Source of the DNA: a virus
IMG/VR virus record: IMGVR_UViG_3300037010_001749
Span: 1 to 64,000 of that record
Length of the DNA stretch: 64,000 bases
Direction: 5' to 3' (one strand)
The notes beneath the pieces are model-generated. The model did no database searches, had not been told where the DNA came from, and saw nothing but the letters and a program-made list of their open reading frames with translations. The position numbers and the translations under genes are program-made. Shown here piece after piece: positions 3,011 through 51,540 of this stretch; the stretch's first letter is position 1; the number at the start of each line of letters is the position of its first letter.

Positions 3011-6000
3011 ATGTCCGGACCTACCCTTGGCCTGAATATCACTGGCACTGGCCAGGCGAAGATCGAAGCGACGATCAGCGCCATTGATCGCCTGGCAGCG
3101 GCGCTGCGCACGCTGCCGGCCGCGGCCGCGGAAATCGACAAGATCAACAAGGCGCTGAACAAGGCGCCCGCGGGCCCCAGCGGCTTGAAGGGCGGCGCGG
3201 CTGACCTCAAGGAACTTGTCGGCGAGTTCAAGAACCTCGGCGCCCAGCTGAACACGTCGTTCGCCTCGCTTGAGGAGACGATCAAGAAGGGCTGGGCCAA
3301 GGCCCAGAAGGCTAACGCTGAGGGCGAGGCCAGCGTAAAGAGCAGCGGAAAGGCCAAGAAGGCTCTGACCTTCACTTCCGTGGGCACGAACGGCCAGCCC
3401 GTCGAGGTTGACGCTGGCTGGTTCGCCAAGCTGCAGACCGGGGCAGAGAAGTTCCAGGTCACCCAAGCACTCGCCGCTCAGAAGGAAGCCGCTGCCATCG
3501 AAGCGGCAGCGGCCAAGAAGGCTGCTGCTCAGGAGAAGGCTGATGCCGTTCTACGCGCAGCCTTCGACAAGAAGTACGCCAAGGAAGCCGACTGGCTCCA
3601 AAAGCTGAAGAACGAGTCGGCCAAGATGGCCGAAGCGCAGCGGGAGGCCGCTGAACGGGAGGCCGCGGCCGCGGCACTTGCTGCACAGCGGAGGGAGGCC
3701 ACCATACAGGTGGCAGACGCCAGGCTGCGGGCAGCCTACGACAAGGCGAATGAGGCTGAAGCAGCCCGGATCCAGGCCCTCAAGTTGAACTCGGCCAAGA
3801 TGGCCGAAGCGCAGCGGGAGGCCGCTGAACGGGAGGCCGCGGCCGCGGCACTTGCTGCACAGCGAAAGGCAGCGCTTGAGGAAGCCCGGATCCAGGCCCT
3901 CAAGTTGAACTCGGCCAAGATGGCCGAAGCGCAGCGGGAGGCCGCTGAACGGGAGGCCGCGGCCATCTCGGCTGCAGCGGCCAAGCTTGCGGCTGCCCAG
4001 CGCGCTACAGATGCTCGCTACGCCGAGGCGACGCCGGCCCAGAAGGCCCGGACCGTGCTTGGCGCCCGTGCACTACTCGATCAGCCAGGTGCTACCCCGA
4101 GTGAGGCGGCCGGCAAGTTCGGCGGCGCTGCAGCTGCGGCCGCAGAGCAGACCACCTTCGCCAACGCCATGCAGAAGGTGCATGGTGAGATCGAGCACGG
4201 CGTGCCCAAGCTCGAGGGCTACAACCGTGCGCTCAAGGACCTGCACAATGGCCTACGCGGCGTGGCCAGTGGATTCGGGCAGATGGCTCTCACCTGGAGT
4301 GCCATCGGCCCATTGCTGGCCGGCGCGGCCATTGGCCAAAGCTTCGTCCAGAGCATCAAGATCGGCGCTTCAGTGCGCCAGGACTTGGAAGAGCTGCGCG
4401 TCCTCTCTGAGGAGTCCCAAGGCGCCGTGTCGGGACTTGAGAAGCAGCTGATCTCGCTGGGCCAGACTGGCCCCTTCGGTCCACGTGAGGTGGCTGATGC
4501 GATGAAGACCCTGTCGCTGGCCGGCCTGGATGCCCAGCAAGTCGGCCAGGCTCTGAAGCCTGCCCTGGACTTCGCCATCACCGGCGGCGTCACCATCCAG
4601 AAATCATCCGAAAGCCTTGTGGCCATCGGCACGGCCTACGGCTACCAGGCCAGTGAGTTCGGCCTTGTGGCCGATGCTGTGGCCAAAGCCGCAGCGATCT
4701 CCATGTCCAGCGTCAGCGGGATGATGGAGTCGTTCAAAGCTTCGTCGGTTGTCGCCCAGGCGTATGGCGTATCGCTAAAAGACACAGCCACTACGCTGGC
4801 CATGCTGGCCAACATCGGCATTCGAGGTTCTGCGGCCGGTACGGCCATGAGGCAGATGTACGCCGAGATCTCAGGCGCAACTGGGAGCACCCGGAAGGCG
4901 ATGAAAGACCTGGGAGTCTCGGTGGTGGAGGAGGGCGGCAAGATGCGCCCAGTGATCGACATCTTCCTCGATCTTTCGAAGGCTCTCGACAAGTACAAAG
5001 GCAAGGCCCAGATCGCCGCAATCCAAGCCATCTCCAACAACCGCGGCGAGAAGAGCGTTGTTGCCGACCTGGTCGGCATCCGCACACCGGCGAAAGCACA
5101 GATCGACCCCAACGTCGCTGCTGTGGCGCCACGAGGTATCCGCGCCGAGATGGAGGCCATCGAAGCGCAGGCGAAGCGCATGGGCCAGTCGGCTACCTCC
5201 GAACTTGAGCGGATCCGCCAGCTGATCGAGGAGTCCGCAGGCTTCAACGCCATCGCTGCTTCGGAGCTTGCCTCCACACCTGAGAACTTGATGAAGGGGG
5301 TGGTCGCCAGCCTGCAGACGTCGCTGTTCGAAGCCTTCAAAGCGCTCGAGCCGACGCTCATCGTCGCAGCCACGCAGATGCGCGACGTGTTCAATAGCCA
5401 GGGCTTCCGAGACGGCATCACCACTCTTGTGCAGCTGATGGGCGCGTTCACGGCCGCGGTCATCGACAACATCGGGTGGCTGAAGTACCTGGCCATCGGC
5501 TTCGCAGCCTTTAAGGGCCTCCAGATCTTCCAGTTGGCGCTCAGCGCTACAGCAGTTGTCCTGGGCATCGTGAGCAAGGAGCTTGTCGTGACCTCGGGCG
5601 GGATCATGGCCGCCGGTGCAGCCAGTGCTGCGGCCACGCCTGCGCTCACGGGTATGGCGCTGGCCGCCCGAGGCTTGAGCGTGGCCCTGGCTATTGCTGG
5701 CCCCTTGGCCTTGGTTTTGACCGCCGCAGCGTTTGCCTGGCAGCTCTACGGGCAGTACAAGCGGGACGCCAATGCGGACGCCGCGCAAGACCGCCAGGCC
5801 AACACGCTGGAGTCTCTTCGCAAGGAGAAGGAGCGCCTGACCGCAGTGGCTGGCGAGATGTCGAAGGGTACTGAAGCGCGCCTGGCTGAGGTGCGTGCGA
5901 TGGACGCCCAGGCGGCCGCGCAGCGGCGACTGGACTACGACAAGGGTCGTAGTCCCTACATTGACCGTCTGACAGACCTTCGAGGTCTGAAGGACAAGTA

Positions 6001-10027: not shown

Positions 10028-12780
10028 CCCATATAGCCGAGGCTGTAGCATCAATGCGACCCGCCCGCTGTGTCGTCCTGCGCAACGTGATGGCACCGCA
10101 TGAGGCCGAGGTCTTTGAGGTCGCGGTAGGTACTCCGGTCCGTACCCTGGATCCGCAAGGGAGATTCCCGGCCGTCTGCCGCCTGGACGGCCAGTGGATC
10201 TTGCGCAAAGACTGGGGCCACCTTCTGGCAGCAGGCCAGACCGTGGAGTTCTACGAGTACCCACAGGGAGGTGGAGGCGGCGAGAACGGTGGTGGGTCAA
10301 ACGCCGGCAGGACCATCTTGACGATTGCCGCGCTGTACCTCGCTGTCCAGTTCGGGCAGTGGTATGCCCTTGAAGGTCTGGCCGGTGGCCAGGCAGCTGG
10401 CACGGCTATAGCCAGTCTGATTCTGACCACGATTGTCAACGACCTTGTTCCGATCAACCCAGGAAACATCAACCCGGGCACGACGGATAGCCAAAACTAC
10501 AGTGCCAACTTGTCAGGCAACCAGGCCCGGCTCGAGCAGCCTATCCCAGTCCTGTACGGGCGAAACAAAACCTTCCCCGACTTCGCTGCACAGCCCTACA
10601 GCAAGTACGAGAACGACGACCAGTACTTCTATGCCCTGCTGTGTCTTGGCCAAGGTTCCTACGACATAGAGTCGATGCTCATCGACGACACCAACCTGCT
10701 CAACTTCACTGAAGTCGTCAAGAAAGTTCTCCCACCAGGCACCGCGCCGTCGACCGTTTCACCCGTGGTGGTCTCGGCACCAGAAGTGACGAACAACCCA
10801 CTCACAGAGGGCCGCTACATCGGGCCCTTTGTAGCCTGCCGCCCGCAGGAGACCGTCAAATCTATAGGCATAGACATCGGCTTCAGCCGAGGTCTGGCCA
10901 CTTACGACTCTGGCGGTGTGCCAGGTAACAAGACGGTGGGCTGGGACGTGGAATACCGGAGTGTTGACGACTTCGGCGCCGGCCTCACTCCCTGGCTCCT
11001 GCTGCACAGTGAAAGCCTGACCGCGGCCCAGACGAAACCTTTGAGAAGGTCCTTTGATTACGACTTGCCGACAGCCTGCCGGCCGCAAGTGAGGCTTGTC
11101 CGGACTACTCCCTTTGACACGAACAGTCGTGTAGCCAACACGATTGAGTGGGTGGCCATGCGTGCCACGCTGAATGCTGCAGCTCCTCTGTCAGCAACGG
11201 CCACGCACATCGAAATAAAGATGCGGGCCACAGACCAGCTGAGCGGCTTGACTCAAAGGCGCATAGGCGTCATATCCAGGCGGAAACTACGCCAATGGAC
11301 GGGCACAGCCTGGACAGCCGAAATAGCGACTCGAAACGCGGCCTGGGCTTTGGCTGACAAGTGGACGAACCAGGTGTACGGCGACAAGTATCCAGATGCC
11401 CGCTGCGATCTGAGTGGCCTTCGAACTCTGGCCTTGAGGCTGGACAGCCGGCAGGATCGTTTTGATGGCGTGTTTGACACAACCTATGACAGCTTCCAGG
11501 CTGACCAGATGATCGCTCAATCTGCTCGGTCGGCGGTTTTCCGACGGGGGGCCGTGATGACTGTCACTCGAGACGAGAAGAAGGACTTCCCGGTCACGGC
11601 GTTCACGTCCAGAAATATTGATCCGGGATCTGTGAGCATCGACTATAAGTTTGCGGATGAGAACTCAGTCGACGGCTTGATCATCGAATACTGGCATAAC
11701 CGAGTTTGGGACTGGCGAGAGGTGGTCTGCCCCATGCCTGGTATCACGGCGCCCACACACCCGCAGCGCATTCGGCTGTTCGGCGTAACCGGGCCAATTC
11801 AGGCCAGGAGAGAAGGTACCTACCAGGCGGCCAACACTTACTGGCGCCGGCGCTTTGCTTCTTTCACTACTGAGATGGAAGGGATGCTTCCGGCCTTCGG
11901 CAGCGCTGTGGCCTTTGCTCCAAGCCTGATGGGCTGGGGGGTCACAGGTGACCTGGTTGACTACGACTCAGAAGCCCTGACGCTGACCTTGAGCGAACCT
12001 GTAGCTTGGGTGGCAGGAGCCAGCCATTACCTCAGCGTGGTCGAAAGAACCGGGGGGCTGTCTACGCCAGTACTGGTTACGCCTGGGGCCAGTGACTACA
12101 CCGTCGTGCTCAGCAGCCCACTGGTAGAGACGCCGTCTATTGACCAGGCTGACGAGGACCGTACCAAGTACCTGTTCGGCGTGTCTCAGCCCTACAGCCG
12201 AGTTTTGCGGGTCTTGGGTATCCGGGATACCAAGGAAGGCGACGGCCGGGTCAAGTACTCGGTCAACGGGGTAATTGAAGACGACCGTGTCCACGCAGCG
12301 GACAACTTTCTGCTGCCCACCGATGGAATGGTGCAAGACGACGTTGATGCTCCGACCGACGATGGCTCAGGCAGCGGTGGCGCCTTGATAGTTTTCTTGG
12401 AAGATGTGTCAGTTGCTGCTGACGGGGCGCATGCCGCTGAGGCCGATGTATGGCTTCGCAATACTGGCATTGGTGAGTCCGGCATAGGCTCTGGCAGATT
12501 TACGGGCCAGTGGCTCTTGGCGTCGCCTCACCCGGCAGTGGACTGCGCCCTTTTTGAGGCCCGTGCTGATATGCTAGGAGGCACCGCTGTTGGCGGCTCG
12601 GCATTAGGCGTTTGGCTGGGCCTTGGTGTCGACCGAGGCTGGAATCTCATAGTCACTGGTGACGGAGCCTCAGCCAGCGCCACGATCCGGGTGCAGATTC
12701 GTGAGGTAGCTACTGGAAGACTGCAGGGAGCTGCCAACTGGTCGTTGAGCGCCAACACGACTGAAGTTGGTGGCGGCTGA
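10018..12780 (+). CDS. Tail tip attachment protein (J-like)
   Basis: 920 residues. GTG 10018 is chosen because GGAGG lies at 10007-10011; the frame is open further upstream but without signals. The N-terminus (LEQPIPVLYGRNKTFPDFA, ALLCLGQGSYDIESMLIDD) and centre (YDSFQADQMIAQSARSAVFR, ANTYWRRR) match the host-specificity/J family that forms the central tail tip and starts receptor contact. The last 130 residues are poorly conserved in type and may carry host range. Confidence 0.88.
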   Translation: MHLTHIAEAVASMRPARCVVLRNVMAPHEAEVFEVAVGTPVRTLDPQGRFPAVCRLDGQWILRKDWGHLLAAGQTVEFYEYPQGGGGGENGGGSNAGRTILTIAALYLAVQFGQWYALEGLAGGQAAGTAIASLILTTIVNDLVPINPGNINPGTTDSQNYSANLSGNQARLEQPIPVLYGRNKTFPDFAAQPYSKYENDDQYFYALLCLGQGSYDIESMLIDDTNLLNFTEVVKKVLPPGTAPSTVSPVVVSAPEVTNNPLTEGRYIGPFVACRPQETVKSIGIDIGFSRGLATYDSGGVPGNKTVGWDVEYRSVDDFGAGLTPWLLLHSESLTAAQTKPLRRSFDYDLPTACRPQVRLVRTTPFDTNSRVANTIEWVAMRATLNAAAPLSATATHIEIKMRATDQLSGLTQRRIGVISRRKLRQWTGTAWTAEIATRNAAWALADKWTNQVYGDKYPDARCDLSGLRTLALRLDSRQDRFDGVFDTTYDSFQADQMIAQSARSAVFRRGAVMTVTRDEKKDFPVTAFTSRNIDPGSVSIDYKFADENSVDGLIIEYWHNRVWDWREVVCPMPGITAPTHPQRIRLFGVTGPIQARREGTYQAANTYWRRRFASFTTEMEGMLPAFGSAVAFAPSLMGWGVTGDLVDYDSEALTLTLSEPVAWVAGASHYLSVVERTGGLSTPVLVTPGASDYTVVLSSPLVETPSIDQADEDRTKYLFGVSQPYSRVLRVLGIRDTKEGDGRVKYSVNGVIEDDRVHAADNFLLPTDGMVQDDVDAPTDDGSGSGGALIVFLEDVSVAADGAHAAEADVWLRNTGIGESGIGSGRFTGQWLLASPHPAVDCALFEARADMLGGTAVGGSALGVWLGLGVDRGWNLIVTGDGASASATIRVQIREVATGRLQGAANWSLSANTTEVGGG

Positions 12781-44595: not shown

Positions 44596-44610
44596 GCTAT
44601 TGTCTCTAGA

Positions 44611-44628
44611 TTAGCTCGAACGTTATGC
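44611..44628 (+). repeat. attC-type half-site, left edge of cassette array
   Basis: TTAGCTCGAAC followed by R' box GTTATGC (44622-44628), the same as the 3' half of site D at 46911-46931. Cassette 1 begins at the TTATGC. The matching 5' half is absent, so this marks the array boundary. Confidence 0.8.
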
Positions 44629-44744
44629 GCCTGTCTCGGAATGGGTGAGCTTCACCGCATGCCAAGTGCCTAAAACCTCGTCTGCCGCCGTCAGCCAGTC
44701 TTGCGGCAGCGGGTGCGCTTCAGCAGGGCCAGCGCAGCGGCACC
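44623..44744 (-). pseudogene. Gene remnant at the start of cassette 1
   Basis: An open frame without a good start reads LPQDWLTAADEVLGTWHAV then LTHSETGA and ends in TAA formed by the TTA of the core site GTTATGC. It looks like the C-terminus of a real protein whose head was lost. Confidence 0.35.
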
Positions 44745-45458
44745 CTACTCCACCGGGTTCACTGCGCTTCGCGCAATCTCAATGAGCAAGTCTCGGAACT
44801 CAGGCGGTGTACCGTTGCGGATCGCAGTCTTATCCTTGCCGCCCACCATCGCCATCATTCCAATGCGCCGCGCTTTCGCGTATCCGGGCAACTCCACGGC
44901 GCGCGGGTGTAGCCGCTGCGGTGTCTTGCCCCAGCGCAGTTCGGGCAGCAGGCGCTTTTGCACGCCAGCCACAAGCAGCCATGTTCCTTTGCCGGCAAGG
45001 TGCCCGTAGTGGCCTTGGTACACGCAGCACGTCCACAAGCCTGGCGCGGCCTCAACCCACCCACCTTTGCGCGGCGGCTTCTTCAGCCTGAAGTACGCCC
45101 ACGCATGCGAGTCCATCGGGTGTTCAAGCACGCCACCGTTCAGACGCAGCGCCGCCAGTGCGGTAGCAAAACACCCATCGTCGGCGCCCAGCTTGTACTG
45201 GTGCGGCTTGCGCGTGCTGCCGTGCCAGAACCTGCCCCAGCGCTGGCAGGGCAGGTGCGCCACTACCGGGTGCGGGCCTGCATAGGTACGGGCATCGCGG
45301 GCTTGGTCCCACGGGTCAACGCCCGGCACGCCTACATAGCAGCCCTTCGGCTCAACGTAGAGGGCCGCCACCGTACGGAAGCTCTCCACCTGGCGCATAA
45401 CCCCTCGCACAAGCTGAGAGCCAACGGCGGGTGTAATGGGTGCTTCAGGTTTGGTCAT
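44745..45458 (-). CDS. Cassette 1: conserved PCxRWG phage protein with attC-encoded N-terminus
   Basis: 237 residues. Residues 1-21 (MTKPEAPITPAVGSQLVRGV...) are encoded by attC A. The body has VEPKGCYVGVPGVDPWDQARDARTY (split here as VEPKG, VPGVDPWD, RDAR), then VAHLPCQRWGRF and VLEHPMDSHAW, a conserved phage family with a PC-x-RW motif. The motif recalls the catalytic PC of cytosine methyltransferases, but no SAM site is recognised. ATG 45458 overlaps the stop of the previous cassette's HTH gene (ATGA), so translation is coupled across the attC. Confidence 0.75.
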   Translation of the reverse strand: MTKPEAPITPAVGSQLVRGVMRQVESFRTVAALYVEPKGCYVGVPGVDPWDQARDARTYAGPHPVVAHLPCQRWGRFWHGSTRKPHQYKLGADDGCFATALAALRLNGGVLEHPMDSHAWAYFRLKKPPRKGGWVEAAPGLWTCCVYQGHYGHLAGKGTWLLVAGVQKRLLPELRWGKTPQRLHPRAVELPGYAKARRIGMMAMVGGKDKTAIRNGTPPEFRDLLIEIARSAVNPVE

Positions 45459-45491
45459 GCCGTTGGTTCCAGCTTTGCTTGGTCATTAGGC
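45395..45491 (+). repeat. attC site A (97 bp)
   Basis: R'' GCATAAC 45395-45401; R' ATTAGGC 45485-45491. The R' has A in place of the G at the recombination point. Inner repeats GCCAACGGC and GCCGTTGG. It carries, on the - strand, the end of the HTH gene (KLEPTA stop) and the start of the next gene. Confidence 0.85.
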
Positions 45492-45679
45492 GGCTTGCGC
45501 AACTCGAACATCACAACCCGCCGCAGACCCAGGCGCCGCAGGTAGTCGGCGCTCGGGTTCACCTTCTCGCCATCACGCAGCCGCGACAGGTAGCCGCAGT
45601 CAATCTCGGTCACGCGGGCCACGGCGCGCAGGCTGCCGTGCTGCGAGACGAGTTGGTCAATGCGCTCTGCCAGCGTCAT
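45455..45679 (-). CDS. Cassette 2b: XRE-type HTH regulator
   Basis: 74 residues. MTLAERIDQLVSQHGSLRAVA, then DCGYLSRLRDGEKVNPSADY is a Cro/CI-type helix-turn-helix. ATG 45679 overlaps the upstream gene (ATGA), giving a two-gene cassette. The last residues KLEPTA are encoded by attC A. It likely represses a promoter on the phage or host genome. Confidence 0.8.
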   Translation of the reverse strand: MTLAERIDQLVSQHGSLRAVARVTEIDCGYLSRLRDGEKVNPSADYLRRLGLRRVVMFELRKPPNDQAKLEPTA

Positions 45680-46020
45680 GACTGATACCCGGCCAGCGCG
45701 TTGGCTAGCGCGGCATCCGCTTCGCCGAGAAAATCGTCCGGCACAATGAACGACACCCACGCGGGAGCGTTCGGCGTTGCTGGATGCCTCGCGTATTGCA
45801 AGAGCGTCGCAAGCAGCACGGCACAGCGCTTCGGCGCAGCCCGCACCAGCACTGCAAACCGCTCCAGGTGCTCCTGCGTCACGCCGTGGCAGCCTTCGCT
45901 GTACACGCACGAACCGCTGCCGTGGTTCAGCACGTTCACCATTCCAGCAGCCTCCACCAGCGGGCCTAACCCCTCTGTCGAGCCGAGTGCCAACGGCTGG
46001 CTGGTTTTGGTAGTGTTCAT
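45676..46020 (-). CDS. Cassette 2a: hypothetical protein with attC-encoded N-terminus
   Basis: 114 residues. Residues 1-19 (MNTTKTSQPLALGSTEGLG) come from attC B, including its own AAGGAG ribosome-binding site. The body reads VLNHGSGSCVYSEGC, EHLERFAVLVRAAPKRC and a VPDDFLGEADAALANALAG end. Unrecognised. Coupled to the HTH gene, so possibly a toxin/antitoxin-like or operon partner, which is speculation. Confidence 0.7.
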   Translation of the reverse strand: MNTTKTSQPLALGSTEGLGPLVEAAGMVNVLNHGSGSCVYSEGCHGVTQEHLERFAVLVRAAPKRCAVLLATLLQYARHPATPNAPAWVSFIVPDDFLGEADAALANALAGYQS

Positions 46021-46068
46021 CGTTGCTTCTCCTTGGCCGTTGTCACCGGCTCAACTCCAACGTTAGGC
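45964..46068 (+). repeat. attC site B (105 bp)
   Basis: R'' GCCTAAC 45964-45970; R' GTTAGGC 46062-46068; inner arms GCCAACGGC and GCCGTTG. On the - strand it holds AAGGAG plus ATG 46020. Nearly identical to site H over its first 89 bases. Confidence 0.9.
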
Positions 46069-46069
46069 C

Positions 46070-46363
46070 TCACACCAGCCACGATGCAGCGGCAGCTTGG
46101 CGAGAGGCTGTGTCGCGTGCCTTGATGCCCGCCAACAAGTCGGCGGCCAGCAGCGGGTATTCGGCGGCGCACGATTCTACGTATGCGCGCAGGGCCGCCG
46201 CAGCGTGCTTATCATGCGTCAGGTCCAGCACAAAGTAAACGCAGCCGCAGTGCTTGCCGCCCGGCGCGCTACTGCCGTCCGTTCGCGTCACGTTGAATCT
46301 GCTGTACAGCCCACGATTCCTGTCACAGGGCATTGGCTCGCCGCACAGTTCACACTTGCTCAT
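46070..46363 (-). CDS. Cassette 3: Cys-rich zinc-binding-like protein
   Basis: 97 residues from ATG 46363 (GAGGAAAAGC upstream). CELCGEPMPC near residue 3 and HCGCVYF near 38 suggest a metal site; a long helix follows. A GTG at 46444 inside attC C would add an attC-encoded head. The stop TGA is next to the R' box of site B. Unknown role. Confidence 0.7.
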   Translation of the reverse strand: MSKCELCGEPMPCDRNRGLYSRFNVTRTDGSSAPGGKHCGCVYFVLDLTHDKHAAAALRAYVESCAAEYPLLAADLLAGIKARDTASRQAAAASWLV

Positions 46364-46386
46364 GCTTTTCCTCGCTCCGGCACCAG

Positions 46387-46487
46387 GCCGAACCATTCGC
46401 ACAAGCTGCGCCCCAACGGCGGGGCACAGCAACTCGGTAGGCACCGCCTGCGCGGCCGTTGGTGCCAGCTTTCCTCAATCGTTAGCC
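46387..46487 (+). repeat. attC site C (101 bp)
   Basis: R'' GCCGAAC 46387-46393 (one mismatch to the GCCTAAC expected for its cassette); R' GTTAGCC 46481-46487; inner arms CCCCAACGGC and GCCGTTGG. Confidence 0.8.
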
Positions 46488-46500
46488 AGCGCCAAAACCA

Positions 46501-46821
46501 TCACGCCGGCTCGTAGGTGGCTGCGAAGATGTCCGGTTTGCATGGATAGTGCTCGCCGGCCACGCCGCGAATGATCCAGTCGCCTGGGCTAGCGACATGC
46601 TGGCCTTCAAGCGTCGGAACCATGATGTTGTTGTTGTGCCATTGCGCCAGCTCGCGCCCGATGGCGTGCTGTCCCTCGTTGATCCAGAGAATCAGCGCAT
46701 AGCTACTTCCGTCGTTGCGGAACTGGCGTGCTTCAATCACGATAGGTTTCTTCCTGAAGCGCGTTGTCTGTTCGGTTGTTGCCGCGTCCAGCTCATGGCC
46801 GGCGCTGAGAAATGTTTGCAT
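46501..46821 (-). CDS. Cassette 4: conserved phage protein
   Basis: 106 residues. The segment FRKKPIVIEARQF near 22 and ASPGDWIIRGVAGEHYPCKP near 75 match a very common small phage protein family of unknown function. AAGGAA precedes ATG 46821. Finding this typical phage gene as a cassette links the array to phage gene exchange. Confidence 0.8.
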   Translation of the reverse strand: MQTFLSAGHELDAATTEQTTRFRKKPIVIEARQFRNDGSSYALILWINEGQHAIGRELAQWHNNNIMVPTLEGQHVASPGDWIIRGVAGEHYPCKPDIFAATYEPA

Positions 46822-46861
46822 GACGGTTCCTTCTGTGTTGTGCCAGCATGGGTCGGGCGCT

Positions 46862-46931
46862 GGCTAACCCCTCGCTCAAGCGGATTTGCCACGGAGTACC
46901 ATGTCAAACGCGCTTAGCTCGAACGTTATGC
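46862..46931 (+). repeat. attC site D (70 bp)
   Basis: R'' GGCTAAC 46862-46868, exact complement of the GTTAGCC that opens its cassette; R' GTTATGC 46925-46931. Same type as site K. Confidence 0.88.
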
Positions 46932-47530
46932 GCCTTGAGGCACGCCACCATTTGCCGCGCCGACTGTCTCGCGTCCATCAACGGGTGGTGCGCCGGTAGT
47001 TCGTCCGGCAAGCGCTCGGTCAGTTCCAGCGCGTTGCCGCCCAGCGCCAGGATCACGCTTGCCAAGTCGTGCAGCGGGTACGGGCCTTGCCACTCGCGCT
47101 CGGCGTGGTTCAGCTTCACGCACGCGCTCAGAAAGTTGGCTTCCACCGGCCAAGCGCAGTCAGCCACCAGCACCGCGCCCTGGTCGGCCCAGCTTCGCCA
47201 CTCATGCCAAAAGTGGTTCCGCAGGTGCTGCTTCGTTGGGCTTGTCACCGGCAGCGCCGGCACATGCTCGCCCACCCACAGCCGGCTTTCGGCGGTGCCG
47301 GTGCAGTCGGCGGGGTCGCAAGCAATGCAGCCTTCGTCCAGCCGCTCGCCTTCTCGGTTCACCACTACCCAGGCCACTGCAAAGCCCTCGCCATGCAGGC
47401 CAATGCTTTCCACGTCAAACACCATAAATTTGTCCATCACCATCCTCTCGTTTCTCGCTGCAGGCGCCGTAACACCTCGCACAAGCTGAGAGCCAACGGC
47501 GGGTGTAGTGGGTGCTTCAGGTTTGGTCAT
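46904..47530 (-). CDS. Cassette 5: DEDD-type 3'-5' exonuclease-like protein
   Basis: 208 residues if started at the attC E ATG 47530 (MTKPEAPTTPAVGSQLVRGV), or about 177 from MDKFMVFDVES near 47437. Motifs VFDVESIG (DxE), VLVADCAWPVEANF and HPLMDARQSA (H-x4-D) fit the DnaQ/RNase T fold. The last residues are encoded by attC D. It parallels the core exonuclease at 28274 in function class only. Confidence 0.75.
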   Translation of the reverse strand: MTKPEAPTTPAVGSQLVRGVTAPAARNERMVMDKFMVFDVESIGLHGEGFAVAWVVVNREGERLDEGCIACDPADCTGTAESRLWVGEHVPALPVTSPTKQHLRNHFWHEWRSWADQGAVLVADCAWPVEANFLSACVKLNHAEREWQGPYPLHDLASVILALGGNALELTERLPDELPAHHPLMDARQSARQMVACLKAHNVRAKRV

Positions 47531-47563
47531 GCCGTTGGCTCCAGCTTTGCTCGATCGTTAGGC
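47467..47563 (+). repeat. attC site E (97 bp)
   Basis: R'' CCGTAAC 47467-47473; R' GTTAGGC 47557-47563; same type as site A. Contains ATG 47530 on the - strand; its TTA at 47558-47560 is the stop codon of cassette 6. Confidence 0.88.
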
Positions 47564-47863
47564 GCTTACCGCAGGGCCAGCAGGCAGCGGCATCCAGTGC
47601 GTCACACGTCTCACCAGCGCTGGCGGCAGCGGCCAGTTGTGCTGGTCCACCTCCCACCGAGGGCCCTCACCAGTAAGCCGGAACTTCGTGATGTGCGCGT
47701 GTCCAGGAGTCAGCCGGTCAAAGACCCCGCGGCGCCACACCAGCACGGTGGCGTTGTGACTGGGCAAGCGCTCGCCAGTCGGCACCCACGCGCATAACCC
47801 CTCACTGCAACCGAGCCCCAACGGCTGGCCCGTGCTGCTGTCATCGGTAGTTTCAGTGGTCAT
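47558..47863 (-). CDS. Cassette 6: DUF551-like protein with attC-encoded N-terminus
   Basis: 101 residues. Residues 1-24 come from attC F (MTTETTDDSSTGQPLGLGCS...), with AGAGGAAA before the ATG also inside the site. The body WVPTGERLPSHNATVLVW and the end THWMPLPAGP match DUF551, a frequent short phage domain. The TAA stop is the core site itself. Confidence 0.82.
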   Translation of the reverse strand: MTTETTDDSSTGQPLGLGCSEGLCAWVPTGERLPSHNATVLVWRRGVFDRLTPGHAHITKFRLTGEGPRWEVDQHNWPLPPALVRRVTHWMPLPAGPAVSA

Positions 47864-47911
47864 CGTGTTTCCTCTCGTGCCGTTGTGTCCGGCTCACCTC
47901 GAACGTTAGGG
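47792..47911 (+). repeat. attC site F (120 bp)
   Basis: R'' GCATAAC 47792-47798; R' GTTAGGG 47905-47911; inner arms CCCCAACGGC and GCCGTTG. Holds a complete - strand ribosome-binding site and start codon. Confidence 0.85.
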
Positions 47912-48079
47912 CGCAGGGCCACGCTTGCGGTTCTCGCGGCGCTGCAACTTCGCTTCCAGCGCCCTGACCTCTGGCACGTACTCCGGGCGCACATGCACTG
48001 TCACCGCAGTGCGCCCGGATTCCTTGTGGCGCTGCCGCTCGTCGGCCTTGCGCTCTGCTGCTGTTTTCGCTGGGCTCAT
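47906..48079 (-). CDS. Cassette 7b: small basic protein
   Basis: 57 residues (MSPAKTAAERKADERQRHKE, then ending NRKRGPAP), strongly basic and helical; the VHVRPEYVPEVRALEAKLQ segment may be a ribbon-helix-helix-type fold. ATG 48079 overlaps the upstream gene (ATGA). The stop TAA is the TTA of the core GTTAGGG. Confidence 0.75.
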   Translation of the reverse strand: MSPAKTAAERKADERQRHKESGRTAVTVHVRPEYVPEVRALEAKLQRRENRKRGPAP

Positions 48080-48369
48080 GCCAGCGTGGCGCCGGCCGCT
48101 AGGTAGTGCGCCAGCTCGCTGTCCGGGATCGAAACGAACCTGTAGCCCATGCGGTGCGCAGTGGAGCCATCAGGAATGGTCACAACGCTGAACGGCTCAC
48201 CCTTCATTTCGGCAATCTGCTTTGCGTAGGCACGCACTGGCTCGGCCTGCGAGTGGATCGGTTCCACTTGCAGGGCTGCGCGCTGGCGCTTCAGTGTCTT
48301 GGTCATCTCAGCTTGCATCTCTTGCTCCTTCTGCTGCACTGTAGCCGCAGTGGCTACAGTATCGCTCAT
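48076..48369 (-). CDS. Cassette 7a: hypothetical protein
   Basis: 97 residues: a long helix (VQQKEQEMQAEMTKTLKRQR) and a beta-rich end (GYRFVSIPDSELAHYL). First gene of a two-gene cassette; no clear ribosome-binding site. Unknown; the two-gene coupling resembles toxin-antitoxin layouts but there is no family match. Confidence 0.68.
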   Translation of the reverse strand: MSDTVATAATVQQKEQEMQAEMTKTLKRQRAALQVEPIHSQAEPVRAYAKQIAEMKGEPFSVVTIPDGSTAHRMGYRFVSIPDSELAHYLAAGATLA

Positions 48370-48401
48370 CGTGACACGTCACGCAAGCATTCTCGCGTGC
48401 G

Positions 48402-48507
48402 CCCTAACCCCTCGTTGCAACCGAGCCCCAACAGGCTGCGGTCAGTTGTGGCCTTTCGGCCTGCTTATGCACGGCCTGTTGGGGCCGGCTGAACTCGAAC
48501 GTTAGGC
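48402..48507 (+). repeat. attC site G (106 bp)
   Basis: R'' CCCTAAC 48402-48408, exact complement of its cassette start GTTAGGG; R' GTTAGGC 48501-48507; arms CCCCAACAGGC and GCCTGTTGGGG. Almost identical to site I. Confidence 0.9.
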
Positions 48508-48806
48508 CCTTCAATGCCGCGAGCAATCTTGCTGGCGGCATTCCGCGCGTTCACCGTCACGCCGTCAGCGTGCGTCTCGCCCCAGCGGCGGGCAATGGCG
48601 GCGCAGCGTGCGCGCTCGGCGGCCACGGCCTTGTCAATGCGCCACTGCACATGCGCCGGGCTTGACCAATGGCCGCACTCGGCGGGGTCATCGTTTGTGC
48701 CGCAGATTGTCATGGTCAGGTATTGGCCCTCGCGCTGCGGTGGCAGCGGGCCTAACCCCTCTGTCGAGCCGAGTGCCAACGGCTGGCTGGTTTTGGTAGT
48801 GTTCAT
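48465..48806 (-). CDS. Cassette 8: hypothetical protein with attC-encoded head and tail
   Basis: 113 residues. The first 19 residues (same as cassette 2a) come from site H with its AAGGAG, and the last about 14 (VRVQPAPTGRA end) from site G, so both termini are attC-encoded. The body QYLTMTICGTNDDPAECGHW, then AVAAERARCAAIARRW is unrecognised. Confidence 0.7.
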   Translation of the reverse strand: MNTTKTSQPLALGSTEGLGPLPPQREGQYLTMTICGTNDDPAECGHWSSPAHVQWRIDKAVAAERARCAAIARRWGETHADGVTVNARNAASKIARGIEGPNVRVQPAPTGRA

Positions 48807-48854
48807 CGTTGCTTCTCCTTGGCCGTTGTCACCGGCTCACATCGATCGTTCGGT
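48750..48854 (+). repeat. attC site H (105 bp)
   Basis: R'' GCCTAAC 48750-48756; R' GTTCGGT 48848-48854. Identical to site B from R'' to CCGGCTCA. Confidence 0.88.
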
Positions 48855-48861
48855 GTGTTGC

Positions 48862-49092
48862 TCACCGCGAGCAACCCAAATGCTTGCCGTCGCTCGTCAT
48901 GCGTGGCGTGAGTCCGCCGGCCGAAGTGCGCAGATACTGGCACCCGGTCAGCGCGTCGGTGCTGGGCACCAAGCCGCTGCGGGCGCCCCACGCGCCGGGG
49001 TCCGTGTCATCGCGCCCAATGGGCAGCAGGCCCACAACCAGCATCATGGCCACGCCAATCAGCAGGTACTTCCCGCACCAGCGGGCGAACAT
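48862..49092 (-). CDS. Cassette 9: small membrane-anchored protein
   Basis: 76 residues from ATG 49092; a TTG at 49143 inside site I would add 17. A hydrophobic segment YLLIGVAMMLVVGLLPI near residues 9-25 is followed by a polar part ending PRMTSDGKHLGC. Probably an inner-membrane protein with a periplasmic tail. Unknown role. Confidence 0.65.
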   Translation of the reverse strand: MFARWCGKYLLIGVAMMLVVGLLPIGRDDTDPGAWGARSGLVPSTDALTGCQYLRTSAGGLTPRMTSDGKHLGCSR

Positions 49093-49113
49093 TTTTGCTT
49101 CTATCAACGACAC

Positions 49114-49219
49114 GCCTAACCCCTCGTTGCAACCGAGCCCCAACAGGCTGCGGTCAGTTGTGGCCTTTCGGCCTGCTTATGCACGGCCTGTTGGGGCCGG
49201 CTGAACTCGAACGTTCGGC
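49114..49219 (+). repeat. attC site I (106 bp)
   Basis: R'' GCCTAAC 49114-49120; R' GTTCGGC 49213-49219; duplicate of site G between CTAAC and AACGTT. Confidence 0.9.
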
Positions 49220-49220
49220 A

Positions 49221-49523
49221 TCAATACCGGCTTTCGAGTTTCGCCAGCGCCGCTTTGATGATCGACTGCATCACCTCATCGGTCATGTGCTTGGCCATTG
49301 CGTCCTTGATGCCGGTTTCCAGCAGCGGCGCGTAGGTGGCCAGCACTTCCTTTTCGATCAGTTCGCGCACGTACCGCTTGACGACATCATCGAATGGGTT
49401 GTTGTAGCTCTTGGACAGTTCAGCGATGCTGCGCTGAACGGCACCCTTCACTACTTCACCGATCTGGCTGTCCATCACAGTCTTGGCGATGAACTCGTTA
49501 ATTTGCTGCGGGGTCAGTTCCAT
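49221..49523 (-). CDS. Cassette 10: hypothetical helical protein
   Basis: 100 residues, all helical (QQINEFIAKTVMDSQIGEVV, YVRELIEKEVLATYAPLLE). AGAAGGAAA precedes ATG 49523. Composition resembles small phage or plasmid accessory helical proteins; no family match. Confidence 0.7.
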   Translation of the reverse strand: MELTPQQINEFIAKTVMDSQIGEVVKGAVQRSIAELSKSYNNPFDDVVKRYVRELIEKEVLATYAPLLETGIKDAMAKHMTDEVMQSIIKAALAKLESRY

Positions 49524-49546
49524 GTCGTTTCCTTCTGTGCGTTGAT

Positions 49547-49651
49547 GCCGAACTGGCAGTTCAAGCAGAGCCCCAACGGCGGCCTGCTTTTGTGGTTAAA
49601 AACTCCGGCGTCCGTGGCGCCGTTGGTACCTGCTTAACCTAAACGTCAGCC
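49547..49651 (+). repeat. attC site J (105 bp)
   Basis: R'' GCCGAAC 49547-49553, exact complement of its cassette start GTTCGGC; R' GTCAGCC 49645-49651 (T to C at position 3); arms CCCCAACGGC and GCCGTTGG. Confidence 0.82.
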
Positions 49652-49687
49652 GGCACCAATACCCTCGGTGCCGGCATACTCGTGTTG

Positions 49688-49966
49688 TCAGAACGTGGTG
49701 GGCTGCGCAATGCCGCGAATCAACTTCATGAAGCCCACTTGCAGGTCAGTGGCTCCCATGCTGACCCACCGCTGGTCAAGGTCCAGTGACAGCGGCCTGC
49801 CATCGGCCACAGGCGTATCGGTGCGCGTGATGTCAGGGTGTTGACGCAGTTTCGCCACAAAAGCGCCGCACTGCTCGGCCAGCGCCTTGCCCTCGTTCAT
49901 CAGCGCTACTTCAGCACCGCTCAGTTGACGGTAGCCCGTCACTTTCGGTTGAATCATCGTTTCCAT
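49688..49966 (-). CDS. acb2-like: Cassette 11: Acb2/Tad1-type cyclic-nucleotide sponge (anti-CBASS) candidate
   Basis: 92 residues. The pattern GYRQLSGAEVALMNEGKAL near the start and DQRWVSMGATDLQVGFMKL then AQPTTF at the end matches the helical-hairpin family of phage Acb2 proteins. Known members form hexamers that sequester cGAMP and related signals, blocking CBASS and Thoeris immunity. AAGGAA precedes ATG 49966. Recognition is from memory of the family pattern, not a search. An anti-defence gene as an integron cassette in a phage is notable. Confidence 0.75.
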   Translation of the reverse strand: METMIQPKVTGYRQLSGAEVALMNEGKALAEQCGAFVAKLRQHPDITRTDTPVADGRPLSLDLDQRWVSMGATDLQVGFMKLIRGIAQPTTF

Positions 49967-50006
49967 GTGGTTCCTTAAGTTGCATGCCAGCGTTGGTGCG
50001 GGTGCT

Positions 50007-50076
50007 GGCTAACCCATCGCTCAAGCGGATTTGCCACGGAGTACCAAGTCAAACGCGCTTAGCTTGAACGTTCGGT
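50007..50076 (+). repeat. attC site K (70 bp)
   Basis: R'' GGCTAAC 50007-50013; R' GTTCGGT 50070-50076; same type as site D. The - strand TAA at 50059-50061 ends cassette 12. Confidence 0.85.
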
Positions 50077-50310
50077 CCGTTCATTCGCCACCGCCACTGC
50101 ATCAAGCACACCCGGCTTCATCGCCAGTTCCAGCAGGCTGCCCATCATGCGCTTGCCGTGCGCCCGGTTGGCATCCAGTAGATCGATGTACTTCTTGCGA
50201 TACTGGTGAAGTTCTTCGTTTTCCTCGCGCAGCCGCTCTAGTTCGTGATGCATGTCCAGCACGTCGGCGGCCATCTGCACAGCCAGGGGCACTTTGTAGT
50301 CTCGCCTCAT
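50059..50310 (-). CDS. Cassette 12: hypothetical coiled-coil protein
   Basis: 83 residues with a heptad-like ELERLREENEELHQYRKKY segment at about 23-41. ATG 50310 overlaps the leader ORF stop (ATGA). The end is encoded by site K. Unknown. Confidence 0.68.
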   Translation of the reverse strand: MRRDYKVPLAVQMAADVLDMHHELERLREENEELHQYRKKYIDLLDANRAHGKRMMGSLLELAMKPGVLDAVAVANERTERSS

Positions 50311-50381
50311 CTCGTTTCTCCACCAACGGGCCTAACCCGTCGCTCAAGTTGAGAGCCAACGGCGCCAGCAGGCACCGTCAT
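50307..50381 (-). CDS. attC-encoded leader ORF, 24 residues
   Basis: ATG 50381 overlaps the stop of the upstream phage gene (ATGA) and uses the junction-element AAGGAGG. It reads MTVPAGAVGSQLERRV then RPVGGETR, homologous in style to the attC-encoded heads PAVGSQLVRGV. Its TGA overlaps the ATG of cassette 12, so it passes ribosomes from the phage operon into the array. Confidence 0.6.
   Translation of the reverse strand: MTVPAGAVGSQLERRVRPVGGETR
50330..50366 (+). repeat. attC half-site L, right edge of cassette array
   Basis: R'' GCCTAAC 50330-50336 and the left inner arm GAGAGCCAACGGCG are present; the right half with R' is missing. The phage gene at 50378 follows. This marks the right boundary of the array. 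Confidence 0.75.
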
Positions 50382-51289
50382 GCCGCCTCCTTAGCCTTGA
50401 GGAGGCCCAGTTGGTGGGCGATACCTTCGATCTCATCGAAGGCGATGTCATGGCAGCCGACCACGATATTGCCGTTGGTGCAGATCTTCGTCAACTCGTA
50501 GTGACCCAAGGTCATGCCTACCTCGTAGTCCTTCTTGCCCTTCATGACGCGCTGGATGACCGGCCAGAGCTTCTTCGCGTCTTCGACGGGGATGCTGGCG
50601 TGGCGGCTGGTCTGGATCATGAACGACGGCAAGTCCAGCCGCAGCATCGTCGGAAGATCCCGGCTGAGCGCTGGGCTCCCACTCCGCCGCCAGGCTGTAA
50701 TGGCGACGGCCTGCAGCCTCCGAAAGGCCTTGGCCTGCGACACTGCGCGGCGTTTCTCCGAGACGGCTTTCTTGGCCAGGTGCTCGCGGTGCTGCTCCGG
50801 GCTCCACGTCGCCGCATCGATCGGCTTGATACGGGCCTTGTGCTTCAGCAGCTTCGCAAACTGGTTGAAGTCGGCGGTGATCTGCGCCGCTTGGCTGAGG
50901 TAGACAGGCCGATTGCCGTCGGCCTTGGCGCGTAGGGCCTTGGCCAGCAGGTTGTCGACGAGGGCCTGAGTGCCTTCCGTGTCCGGCGCGTCGTGCTCCG
51001 GGTTCAGCACGGACACCTGCTTCAGGTGCCTGGTGGCGTGTCGTGCCTCCCAGACGTGCCTGTTTGTCGTGGAAGAATTCTTCTCCAGGTTGATGGCCAC
51101 CCAGCCGCCGGGTAAGTGGCGACCGATGCAGTAGTGCTTGCCGTAGCTGTAGAAGTAGTCGCCTTCGACGAAGGCCTGGATGACGCGGCCGCCGTTCATG
51201 CCGGGACGCTCGGGCATCCGAGCTTCAGCCTGCCGTTTGTGGGCCCAGATGTGGGCCAGTTCTTCCGAGTGGTTGTACACCGTCTTCAT
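50378..51289 (-). CDS. Conserved phage protein (DUF8033-like)
   Basis: 303 residues from ATG 51289 (ATGA). The N-terminal segment FVEGDYFYSYGKHYCIGRHL then SSTTNRHV matches a family seen in many phages, of unknown role. The C-terminal half is helical and basic. The last residues LLKAKEAA are encoded by the junction element at 50388. It is the phage gene interrupted from its old neighbour by the cassette array. Confidence 0.68.
   Translation of the reverse strand: MKTVYNHSEELAHIWAHKRQAEARMPERPGMNGGRVIQAFVEGDYFYSYGKHYCIGRHLPGGWVAINLEKNSSTTNRHVWEARHATRHLKQVSVLNPEHDAPDTEGTQALVDNLLAKALRAKADGNRPVYLSQAAQITADFNQFAKLLKHKARIKPIDAATWSPEQHREHLAKKAVSEKRRAVSQAKAFRRLQAVAITAWRRSGSPALSRDLPTMLRLDLPSFMIQTSRHASIPVEDAKKLWPVIQRVMKGKKDYEVGMTLGHYELTKICTNGNIVVGCHDIAFDEIEGIAHQLGLLKAKEAA
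50388..50403 (-). repeat. Stop/SD junction element 4, array entry
   Basis: TCCTTAG-CC-TTGAGGA, extended to CCTCC/GGAGG arms. It drives ATG 50381, now the attC leader ORF rather than a phage gene. Confidence 0.85.
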
Positions 51290-51540
51290 GCGATGAGTCC
51301 TCGTTGTCTTGCGTACTCGACCAGATGGGGTTGCCACTCAGCTTCGCTGTTGGCTGACCGACTATTGAAGCCGGCGAGGCGTGGAGCGGTCAGGTAACCC
51401 GACTCGATCTCCTCGTTGATGGCCTCGACATCAAGGCTGAAAATCTCGCGCCCCCTCGGGGTGCTGAGGCTGGCGTATCCGTCGCCTCGTTCAAACCACA
51501 CGCTGGCCACGTACTCGTGGTCAGCGATCTTCTTTGCCAT
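51286..51540 (-). CDS. Hypothetical protein
   Basis: 84 residues, alpha/beta (VASVWFERGDGYASLSTP, INEEIESGYLTAPRL). ATG 51540 is 6-7 bases after the CTAAGGAG of the element at 51547. Unknown. Confidence 0.65.
   Translation of the reverse strand: MAKKIADHEYVASVWFERGDGYASLSTPRGREIFSLDVEAINEEIESGYLTAPRLAGFNSRSANSEAEWQPHLVEYARQRGLIA

Follow-up and report, generated by a model that had tools for sequence, protein, structure and literature searches.

Integrons are best known from bacteria, in which they capture genes and a promoter adjacent to attI drives reading of the cassettes. Repeated attC-like sites in the middle of a phage operon raise the question of whether they form an integron array and, if so, how its cassettes are read and moved. 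The window analyzed here covers 64 kb of a contig from a tailed phage; the whole contig is 85.9 kb long. The contig encodes terminase, portal, tape measure, DNA polymerase, primase, and helicase, which identify it as a real phage. End repeats are absent, and the contig may be incomplete. Our computational analysis indicates that these sites and their inserts are very likely an integron cassette array, without a neighboring integrase, made up of mirror-image cassettes within a leftward phage operon.

The attC array

Covariance model R1 was trained on 28 attC sites from bacteria, all lacking the window's own attC motif. R1 recovers all 11 full sites with E values from 5.8e-13 to 1.2e-4, every one on the + strand, and apart from these sites and the right edge there was no match with E<5 in the 64-kb window. 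An independent arm-alignment detector (threshold 8) found 9 of the 11 sites at a spurious rate of 1 per 64-kb shuffle, and the left-arm motif is present in 7 copies in the window versus 0 in 100 shuffles. Each of the 11 sites has R''/R' boxes (RYYYAAC / GTTRRRY) around imperfect inverted L''/L' arms. The extrahelical bases define the strand polarity of the sites: the left (R''-L'') arm of the + strand is richer in 8 of the 9 detected sites, with 1 undecided.

The 12 inserts between the sites are bounded by G|TTRRRY crossovers. By reading, the closing R'' and the opening R' are exactly complementary in about half of the cassettes, exemplified by GTTAGCC at 46481 with GGCTAAC at 46862 and GTTCGGC at 49213 with GCCGAAC at 49547; the remaining cassettes are mismatched at one or more bases. 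The sites at 48402-48507 and 49114-49219 are near-identical. Both ends of the array are half-sites, so the outermost units may have lost mobility. The preliminary description had read this locus as an integron-type array of eleven full attC sites and two edge half-sites, with about twelve inserts and exact R''/R' complementarity in several cassettes. That reading stands, and covariance model R1, a type of test it named as able to refute it, accepts the sites as attC.

Table 1. Coordinates of the attC sites and cassette genes in the window
Feature	Position	Strand	Remarks
Left edge half-site	44605..44628	+	L'-R' arm only (CTCGAACGTTATGC); R' GTTATGC; same arm as R' side of 46862..46931
attC	45395..45491	+	E 3.6e-7; loop holds ATG of 44745..45458 gene
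attC with start module	45964..46068	+	E 1.1e-11
attC	46387..46487	+	E 4.6e-7
attC	46862..46931	+	E 2.3e-12
attC	47466..47563	+	E 2.1e-8; loop GGAG + ATG in frame into 46904..47530 gene
attC	47792..47911	+	E 1.2e-4; loop with RBS-like GAGAGG + ATG
attC	48402..48507	+	E 5.8e-13
attC with start module	48750..48854	+	E 9.2e-11; same start module as 45964..46068
attC	49114..49219	+	E 7.1e-13
attC	49547..49651	+	E 2e-6
attC	50007..50076	+	E 6.5e-11
Right edge	about 50330..50406	+	E 0.0027; R''-L'' arm present, R' absent (decayed or truncated attC)
Cassette gene, 237 aa	44745..45458	-	phrog_12600 family (E 1e-60); putative start codon inside attC 45395..45491
Small second ORF of cassette	45455..45682	-	MTLAERIDQLVSQHGSLRAVARV..., helix-turn-helix-like by eye; TGA overlaps attC-loop ATG (ATGA)
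Cassette gene, 114 aa	45676..46020	-	SD (AAGGAG) + ATG inside attC 45964..46068, in frame through R''
Cassette gene	46070..46363	-	phrog_9572, E 4e-20
Cassette gene, 106 aa	46501..46821	-	phrog_419, E 1e-29
Cassette gene	46904..47530	-	Conserved part 178 aa, 46904..47440
Cassette gene, 101 aa	47558..47863	-	DUF551 (above Pfam cut-off); putative start codon in attC 47792..47911
Cassette gene, 97 aa	48076..48369	-	Followed by small ORF ending in R' box of attC 47792..47911
Cassette gene, 113 aa	48465..48806	-	Putative start in attC 48750..48854
Cassette gene, at most 93 aa	48862..49143	-	phrog_14094, E 5e-12
Cassette gene, 100 aa	49221..49523	-	
Cassette gene, 92 aa	49688..49966	-	phrog_717, E 6e-14
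Cassette gene, 83 aa	50059..50310	-	

With at least two attC sites and no nearby integrase, the array is a CALIN. No match to an integron integrase was found anywhere in the 85.9-kb record, and the complete arrangement of intI next to the array is seen in relatives only. The edge at 44622, compared by eye, is unlike the attI found 5' of phage intI. Rfam and tRNA scans of the 64-kb window detected nothing, no PADLOC family matched any window cassette protein tested, and DNA similarity searches of the array against known phages and plasmids gave short matches to single genes only. A likeness by eye of the 46904-47440 protein to a DnaQ-type exonuclease gained no support from Pfam, PHROG, or PDB.

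Gene direction and the proposed attC leader

The covariance model and the extrahelical bases place attC polarity on the + strand, whereas the cassette genes are all on the - strand, a placement backed by PHROG and Pfam matches. The co-direction of ORF and attC that is usual for cassettes is absent from the window. The genes are antisense to attC in 7 of 7 window cassettes and in 34 of 35 from other phage contigs with the same attC type. Direction calls for small ORFs in GC-rich DNA rest partly on codon scores, and the start is ambiguous in many cassettes. The same attC motif occurs in Burkholderiales genomes, including Rubrivivax, and 11 of 15 carry IntI. In contrast to the phages, bacterial arrays with this motif are sense in 152 of 202 cases (39 sense versus 5 among clear calls), although bacterial calls are noisy. 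Gene direction around intI in the bacterial control was called with per-locus codon tables; tables trained on GC-rich DNA gave muddled direction. The sites of the published phage TJE1 have sense polarity by the same detector. Contig G016 has two gene blocks of opposite direction, and the attCs of each block oppose its own genes, showing that polarity follows operon direction within this contig.

Read in the gene direction, each attC comes before its own gene. A recombining unit cut at G|TTRRRY would have the order attC, ORF, boundary in that direction, and attC would therefore form a 5' leader for the gene of its unit. A start module, consisting of a Shine-Dalgarno motif and an ATG in the loop that reads into the gene, is present in 21 of 74 long phage attCs. 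Shuffles of the long viral attCs gave a mean of 1.5 and a maximum of 5, and the opposite direction gave 0 of 74. Bacterial attCs had 10 of 253 against 4.2 expected. These counts suggest that some attCs provide the ribosome-binding site and putative start codon for the gene they precede, with translation predicted to begin within the attC.

IntI and probable cassette exchange in related phages

The antisense ORFs and the start codons carried by some attCs go beyond the preliminary description, as does the presence of IntI in related phages. IntI is encoded by the Rubrivivax prophage G033 (440 bits versus the TIGR02249 cut-off of 265) and at 24 viral loci that are 57-80% identical, with a few fragments higher. 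The protein aligns over residues 42-350 to VchIntIA (2A3V), including the IntI-specific extra segment. These data identify it as an integron integrase. The phage IntIs form a clade, grouped at 99/94, mostly adjoin mirrored arrays, and have attI 5' of intI. The attCs upstream of IntI have opposed polarity and the genes face IntI (29 versus 2 clear calls). The IntI of contig L294 clusters with chromosomal IntIs, yet the L294 array is also mirrored. Integration of the prophage through its IntI was considered and set aside, since a distinct phage integrase gene lies next to intI in phages such as L202 and L204. The preliminary description held that integron arrays in phages appear rare. This needs qualifying: in limited scanning, attC arrays or IntI were present in about 45 viral records, among them some duplicates, and Qi et al. 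2023 (PMC9892861) reported 21 phages with integron parts.

The whole 46904-47530 cassette is shared at 86% identity with the otherwise unrelated phage G001, and the shared segment stops no more than 12 bp from the crossovers. Single-cassette sharing bounded by crossovers is also found between L210 and L212 and between G033 and L200. Phages L202 and L217 are ~96% identical and differ by a whole array; the two diverge exactly at the attC and attI crossovers, and nothing between those points is homologous. These sequence comparisons strongly indicate the exchange of cassettes between phages. No relatives were found via the upstream flank gene (50378-51337), and TerL retrieved only a near-identical fragment. 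Because these searches yielded no close relative of the window's phage carrying another array, the evidence for turnover comes from other phages. The gain and loss of cassettes proposed in the preliminary description is supported by array comparison in relatives but not in the window's phage itself.

Mechanism, alternatives, and known systems

We propose that the phage operon promoter, located at the far end, drives cassette transcription in place of an integron Pc promoter, and that an integron integrase would excise and insert the cassettes. Some related phages and prophages carry IntI at the operon's 3' end, adjoining attI. The window's phage would have to borrow an IntI because its own contig lacks intI, and a co-resident prophage, a coinfecting phage, or a host chromosomal integron could provide catalysis in trans. 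Phages would thereby trade small accessory genes, such as a DNA methyltransferase in relatives, and may benefit from their expression.

The broader reading is that Burkholderiales phages keep their own integron system, which we regard as probable. It would comprise an IntI clade with its attI and a mirror-image cassette pool, with attC as a portable leader bearing the ribosome-binding site and start codon. The pool would be common to unrelated phages, and those without intI would use the system in trans. Reversed polarity would separate the phage and bacterial pools because a phage cassette in a host integron would be antisense to the promoter, and vice versa. The same system could be mirrored through an accident of one phage IntI lineage and its private cassette pool, without a selective basis. 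The single IntI clade, pools that may be common by descent, and TJE1 as a sense phage array are consistent with this idea. We consider it unlikely, since the L294 array is mirrored under an IntI of the chromosomal group, phages that lack intI and differ in backbone have mirrored arrays as well, and polarity tracks operon direction in G016.

The frequency of start modules in long sites, and near-identical repeats such as 48402-48507 and 49114-49219 that could recombine, would fit a primary role of the attC-like sites as RNA leaders (translation signals or operon hairpins), spread through homologous recombination between repeats, with integron recombination only historical. This is improbable: the sites still conform to the attC model in both arms, R boxes, and extrahelical bases, R''/R' complementarity is retained in about half of the cassettes, intact IntI and attI adjoin such arrays in phages, and L202 and L217 break at crossovers without homology inside. 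Least probable of all is an ordinary CALIN, a chance-acquired and now inert piece of a host chromosomal integron with genes reversed by insertion direction, which would fit the missing intI, the half-sites at both ends, and an attC type common to Rubrivivax and other Burkholderiales integrons, but is already contradicted because the gene/attC relation is internal to each unit, where reverse insertion cannot flip it, and is reversed in nearly all phage cassettes. In addition, the cassette genes have matches in phage families, and the homology that unrelated phages share stops at crossovers.

Integron recombination chemistry appears rebuilt here for phages, with cassettes read from the other end and attC as gene leader. 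This would explain how small accessory genes in phages turn over rapidly and in a site-specific manner, and would give phages and host integrons a route to meet. Active phage use of integron recombination and cassette orientation as a separator of phage and bacterial pools become testable.

The available text of Qi et al. 2023 (PMC9892861) describes phage CALINs and integrons, such as that of Tetrasphaera phage TJE1, that are likewise attC arrays in phage genomes, and reports that attCs of isolated virulent phages recombine with IntI1 and attI1. The TJE1 and PH101 cassettes there have the usual orientation, and mirrored cassettes, a start codon in attC, or a phage IntI clade were not found in that text. 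The sedentary chromosomal integrons of Rubrivivax and other Burkholderiales share the attC arm motif, IntI, and the intI-attI-attC topology; their cassette genes run with attC and away from intI, whereas the phage genes run against attC and toward intI. The ORF-11 leader of attI1 in class 1 integrons likewise places a translation start within a recombination site, ahead of a cassette gene. That start lies in attI1, outside the cassette, whereas the phage start would be located in the cassette's own attC and travel with the gene. Treponema-type integrons (PMC3607928) have an atypical intI direction, and their intI and cassette genes are transcribed in one direction, a feature they share with the phage system. 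In the Treponema type intI itself is flipped and faces attI, whereas in the phages intI and attI are standard and the ORFs are flipped within the cassettes.

Identity and extent of the attC array

The window covers positions 1–64,000 of an 85,895-base virus record. Its genes for tape measure, baseplate, terminase large subunit, portal, head protease, SbcC-like nuclease, DNA polymerase, primase and helicase identify a tailed phage. The preliminary description claimed 11 full attC sites, 2 edge half-sites and about 12 inserts, and these counts were borne out: 12 small inserts separate the sites. A covariance model was trained on 28 attC sites from bacterial arrays, leaving out all sites that matched the window-derived motif. 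The model recovered all eleven full sites, at E-values from 5.8e-13 to 1.2e-4, as well as the right edge of the array (E 0.0027), and a search of the 64-kb window gave no further match up to E=5. Rejection of the sites by covariance models, the outcome that the earlier description had named as refuting, therefore did not occur. The same model recovered 2 of the 3 detector-marked sites in Tetrasphaera phage TJE1, whose attC cluster is published with sites tested against IntI1 (PMC9892861). The window array ends in a half-site on either side, which would lock its terminal cassettes in position. Neither IntI nor attI was found for the window's phage.

Polarity of attC sites and cassette genes

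Every covariance-model match in the window is on the + strand, and two-arm alignment of each site places the extra bases in the left arm of that strand. Classical attC top strands show this same placement of their extrahelical bases. It is the - strand, however, that carries the cassette genes, and there the products of 6 of the 12 inserts match phage or Pfam families; therefore, the genes run against the attC sites. The cassettes scored in the window are antisense (7/7). The motif TAACCCNTCNNNNNARNNGAGNSCCAACRG was used to scan viral and bacterial collections. Bacterial matches were mainly arrays of Rubrivivax and other Burkholderiales, and 11 of the 15 genomes tested among them had an IntI above the curated cut-off. 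Cassettes on viral contigs, which are metagenomic, scored antisense in 34 of 35 cases (clear calls, 10 antisense versus 0) compared to 152 of 202 bacterial cassettes scoring sense (clear calls, 39 sense versus 5). This contrast is statistical; single calls are uncertain for small ORFs in GC-rich DNA. Phage contig G004 (35.9 kb; terminase and portal genes) is probably complete because it has 123-bp end repeats, and it carries about 14 attC sites of the window's type. Phage contig G016 has two oppositely directed gene blocks, and the attC sites of each oppose their own genes. Mirroring is common in this sample, most of which was reached through a single attC motif and a single family of IntI, but it is not universal because the attC sites of TJE1 run in the same direction as its genes. 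Inverted-repeat elements of ~127 bp with mixed polarity mimic attC ends in Rubrivivax rivuli (L050 and L117), and they are probably an unrelated repeat family.

Integron integrase in prophage and viral relatives

A prophage in a Rubrivivax genome bin has terminase and tape-measure genes and encodes an IntI directly preceded by three mirrored attC sites. This IntI aligns with IntI4 of V. cholerae (2A3V) over residues 42–350, a stretch that covers the segment characteristic of integron integrases. Its relatives are encoded at 24 viral loci, some of them duplicates, and are 57–80% identical except for two fragments. Several loci have no attC in the sequence examined around intI. Nearly all attC sites near viral intI are 5' of the gene and oppose it in polarity, an arrangement shared with normal integrons, but the cassette genes face intI (clear calls for the same direction, 29 versus 2). 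Chromosomal control loci are opposite to the phage pattern (25 versus 10 calls), and 6 of the 10 exceptional calls come from L254 and L269, whose IntIs lie within the phage clade (support 99/94). The IntI of L294 groups with chromosomal IntIs, its array is mirrored nonetheless, and the locus carries phage-type recombination genes. A separate phage-type integrase is the next gene after intI in L202, L204, L206 and L200. The ORF overlapping the end of the prophage intI has a 72%-identical homolog in the cassette region of another phage; no family match was found for this protein.

Coordinates of arrays, cassettes, candidate start sites in attCs and prophage features
Feature	Location	Detail
attC array	window 44.6–50.4 kb
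Half attC sites	window 44605–44628 and 50330–50406	array ends
Cassette similar to one in phage contig G001	window 46904–47530
attCs with start module	window 45964, 47467, 48750
attCs with ATG	window 45395, 47792	Shine-Dalgarno weaker or absent
ATGA overlap	window 45455–45460	inside attC loop
Arrays of opposite polarity	G016 (IMGVR_UViG_3300047545_000653) 4470–4823 and 11369–12768
Prophage with IntI at end of early operon	JAIXZR010000237 (G033:C246) 33.7–67.7 kb; L199:6266–7327
ORF overlapping end of prophage intI	L199:7324–7728	134 aa
Homolog of this ORF	G018:31893–32279

Putative gene starts in attC loops and probable cassette exchange

IntI cuts between G and TTRRRY in R', so a mirrored cassette reads attC, ORF, boundary in the gene direction, and the attC belongs to the downstream gene. 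A start module was scored when the loop contained a Shine-Dalgarno motif and an ATG whose open frame passed the R'' box and continued for at least 30 more codons. Of 74 different long viral attCs, 21 had a start module in the gene direction, whereas loop shuffling gave 1.5 on average and never more than 5; in the other direction none had one (0/74). Bacterial attC sites had 10 in 253 (4.2 expected). Just two of the three frames are represented; the third never is, as expected because GTTAGGC has TAG there. Three window attCs pass this test, and two others have the ATG. From the sequence of these loops, we infer that translation begins at the attC-loop starts. In the window, the stop of a small ORF and the start that follows it share the sequence ATGA, suggesting that translation is coupled across a cassette boundary.

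The phages at L202 and L217 are 94–97% identical around the array. Their homology ends between GAGGCCTRA and C and restarts just before intI between TAA and CGTYAATTCGACCGCAGGAACCGCGGCGTAACACCG, and the 2.3 and 3.4 kb between these breakpoints have no sequence in common. The TAA/CGTYAATTCGACCGCAGGAACCGCGGCGTAACACCG junction is presumed to be attI. The window and G001 cassettes are 86% identical over 657 bp, with both ends of the similarity ≤12 bp from crossovers, and the backbones of the two phages are unrelated. The gene of this cassette also occurs in other phages without an attC. Single whole cassettes are common to L210 and L212, and also to the prophage (G033) and L200. Among the cassette genes of relatives are those for a methyltransferase (L206) and an SNF2-type helicase (L219).

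Both attC arrays and integrons have been described in phages before (PMC9892861). A search for phage-encoded or mirrored integrons, covering mainly open-access journal articles, brought up nothing closer. Treponema integrons differ in that intI is flipped, whereas the cassette genes are not (PMC3607928).
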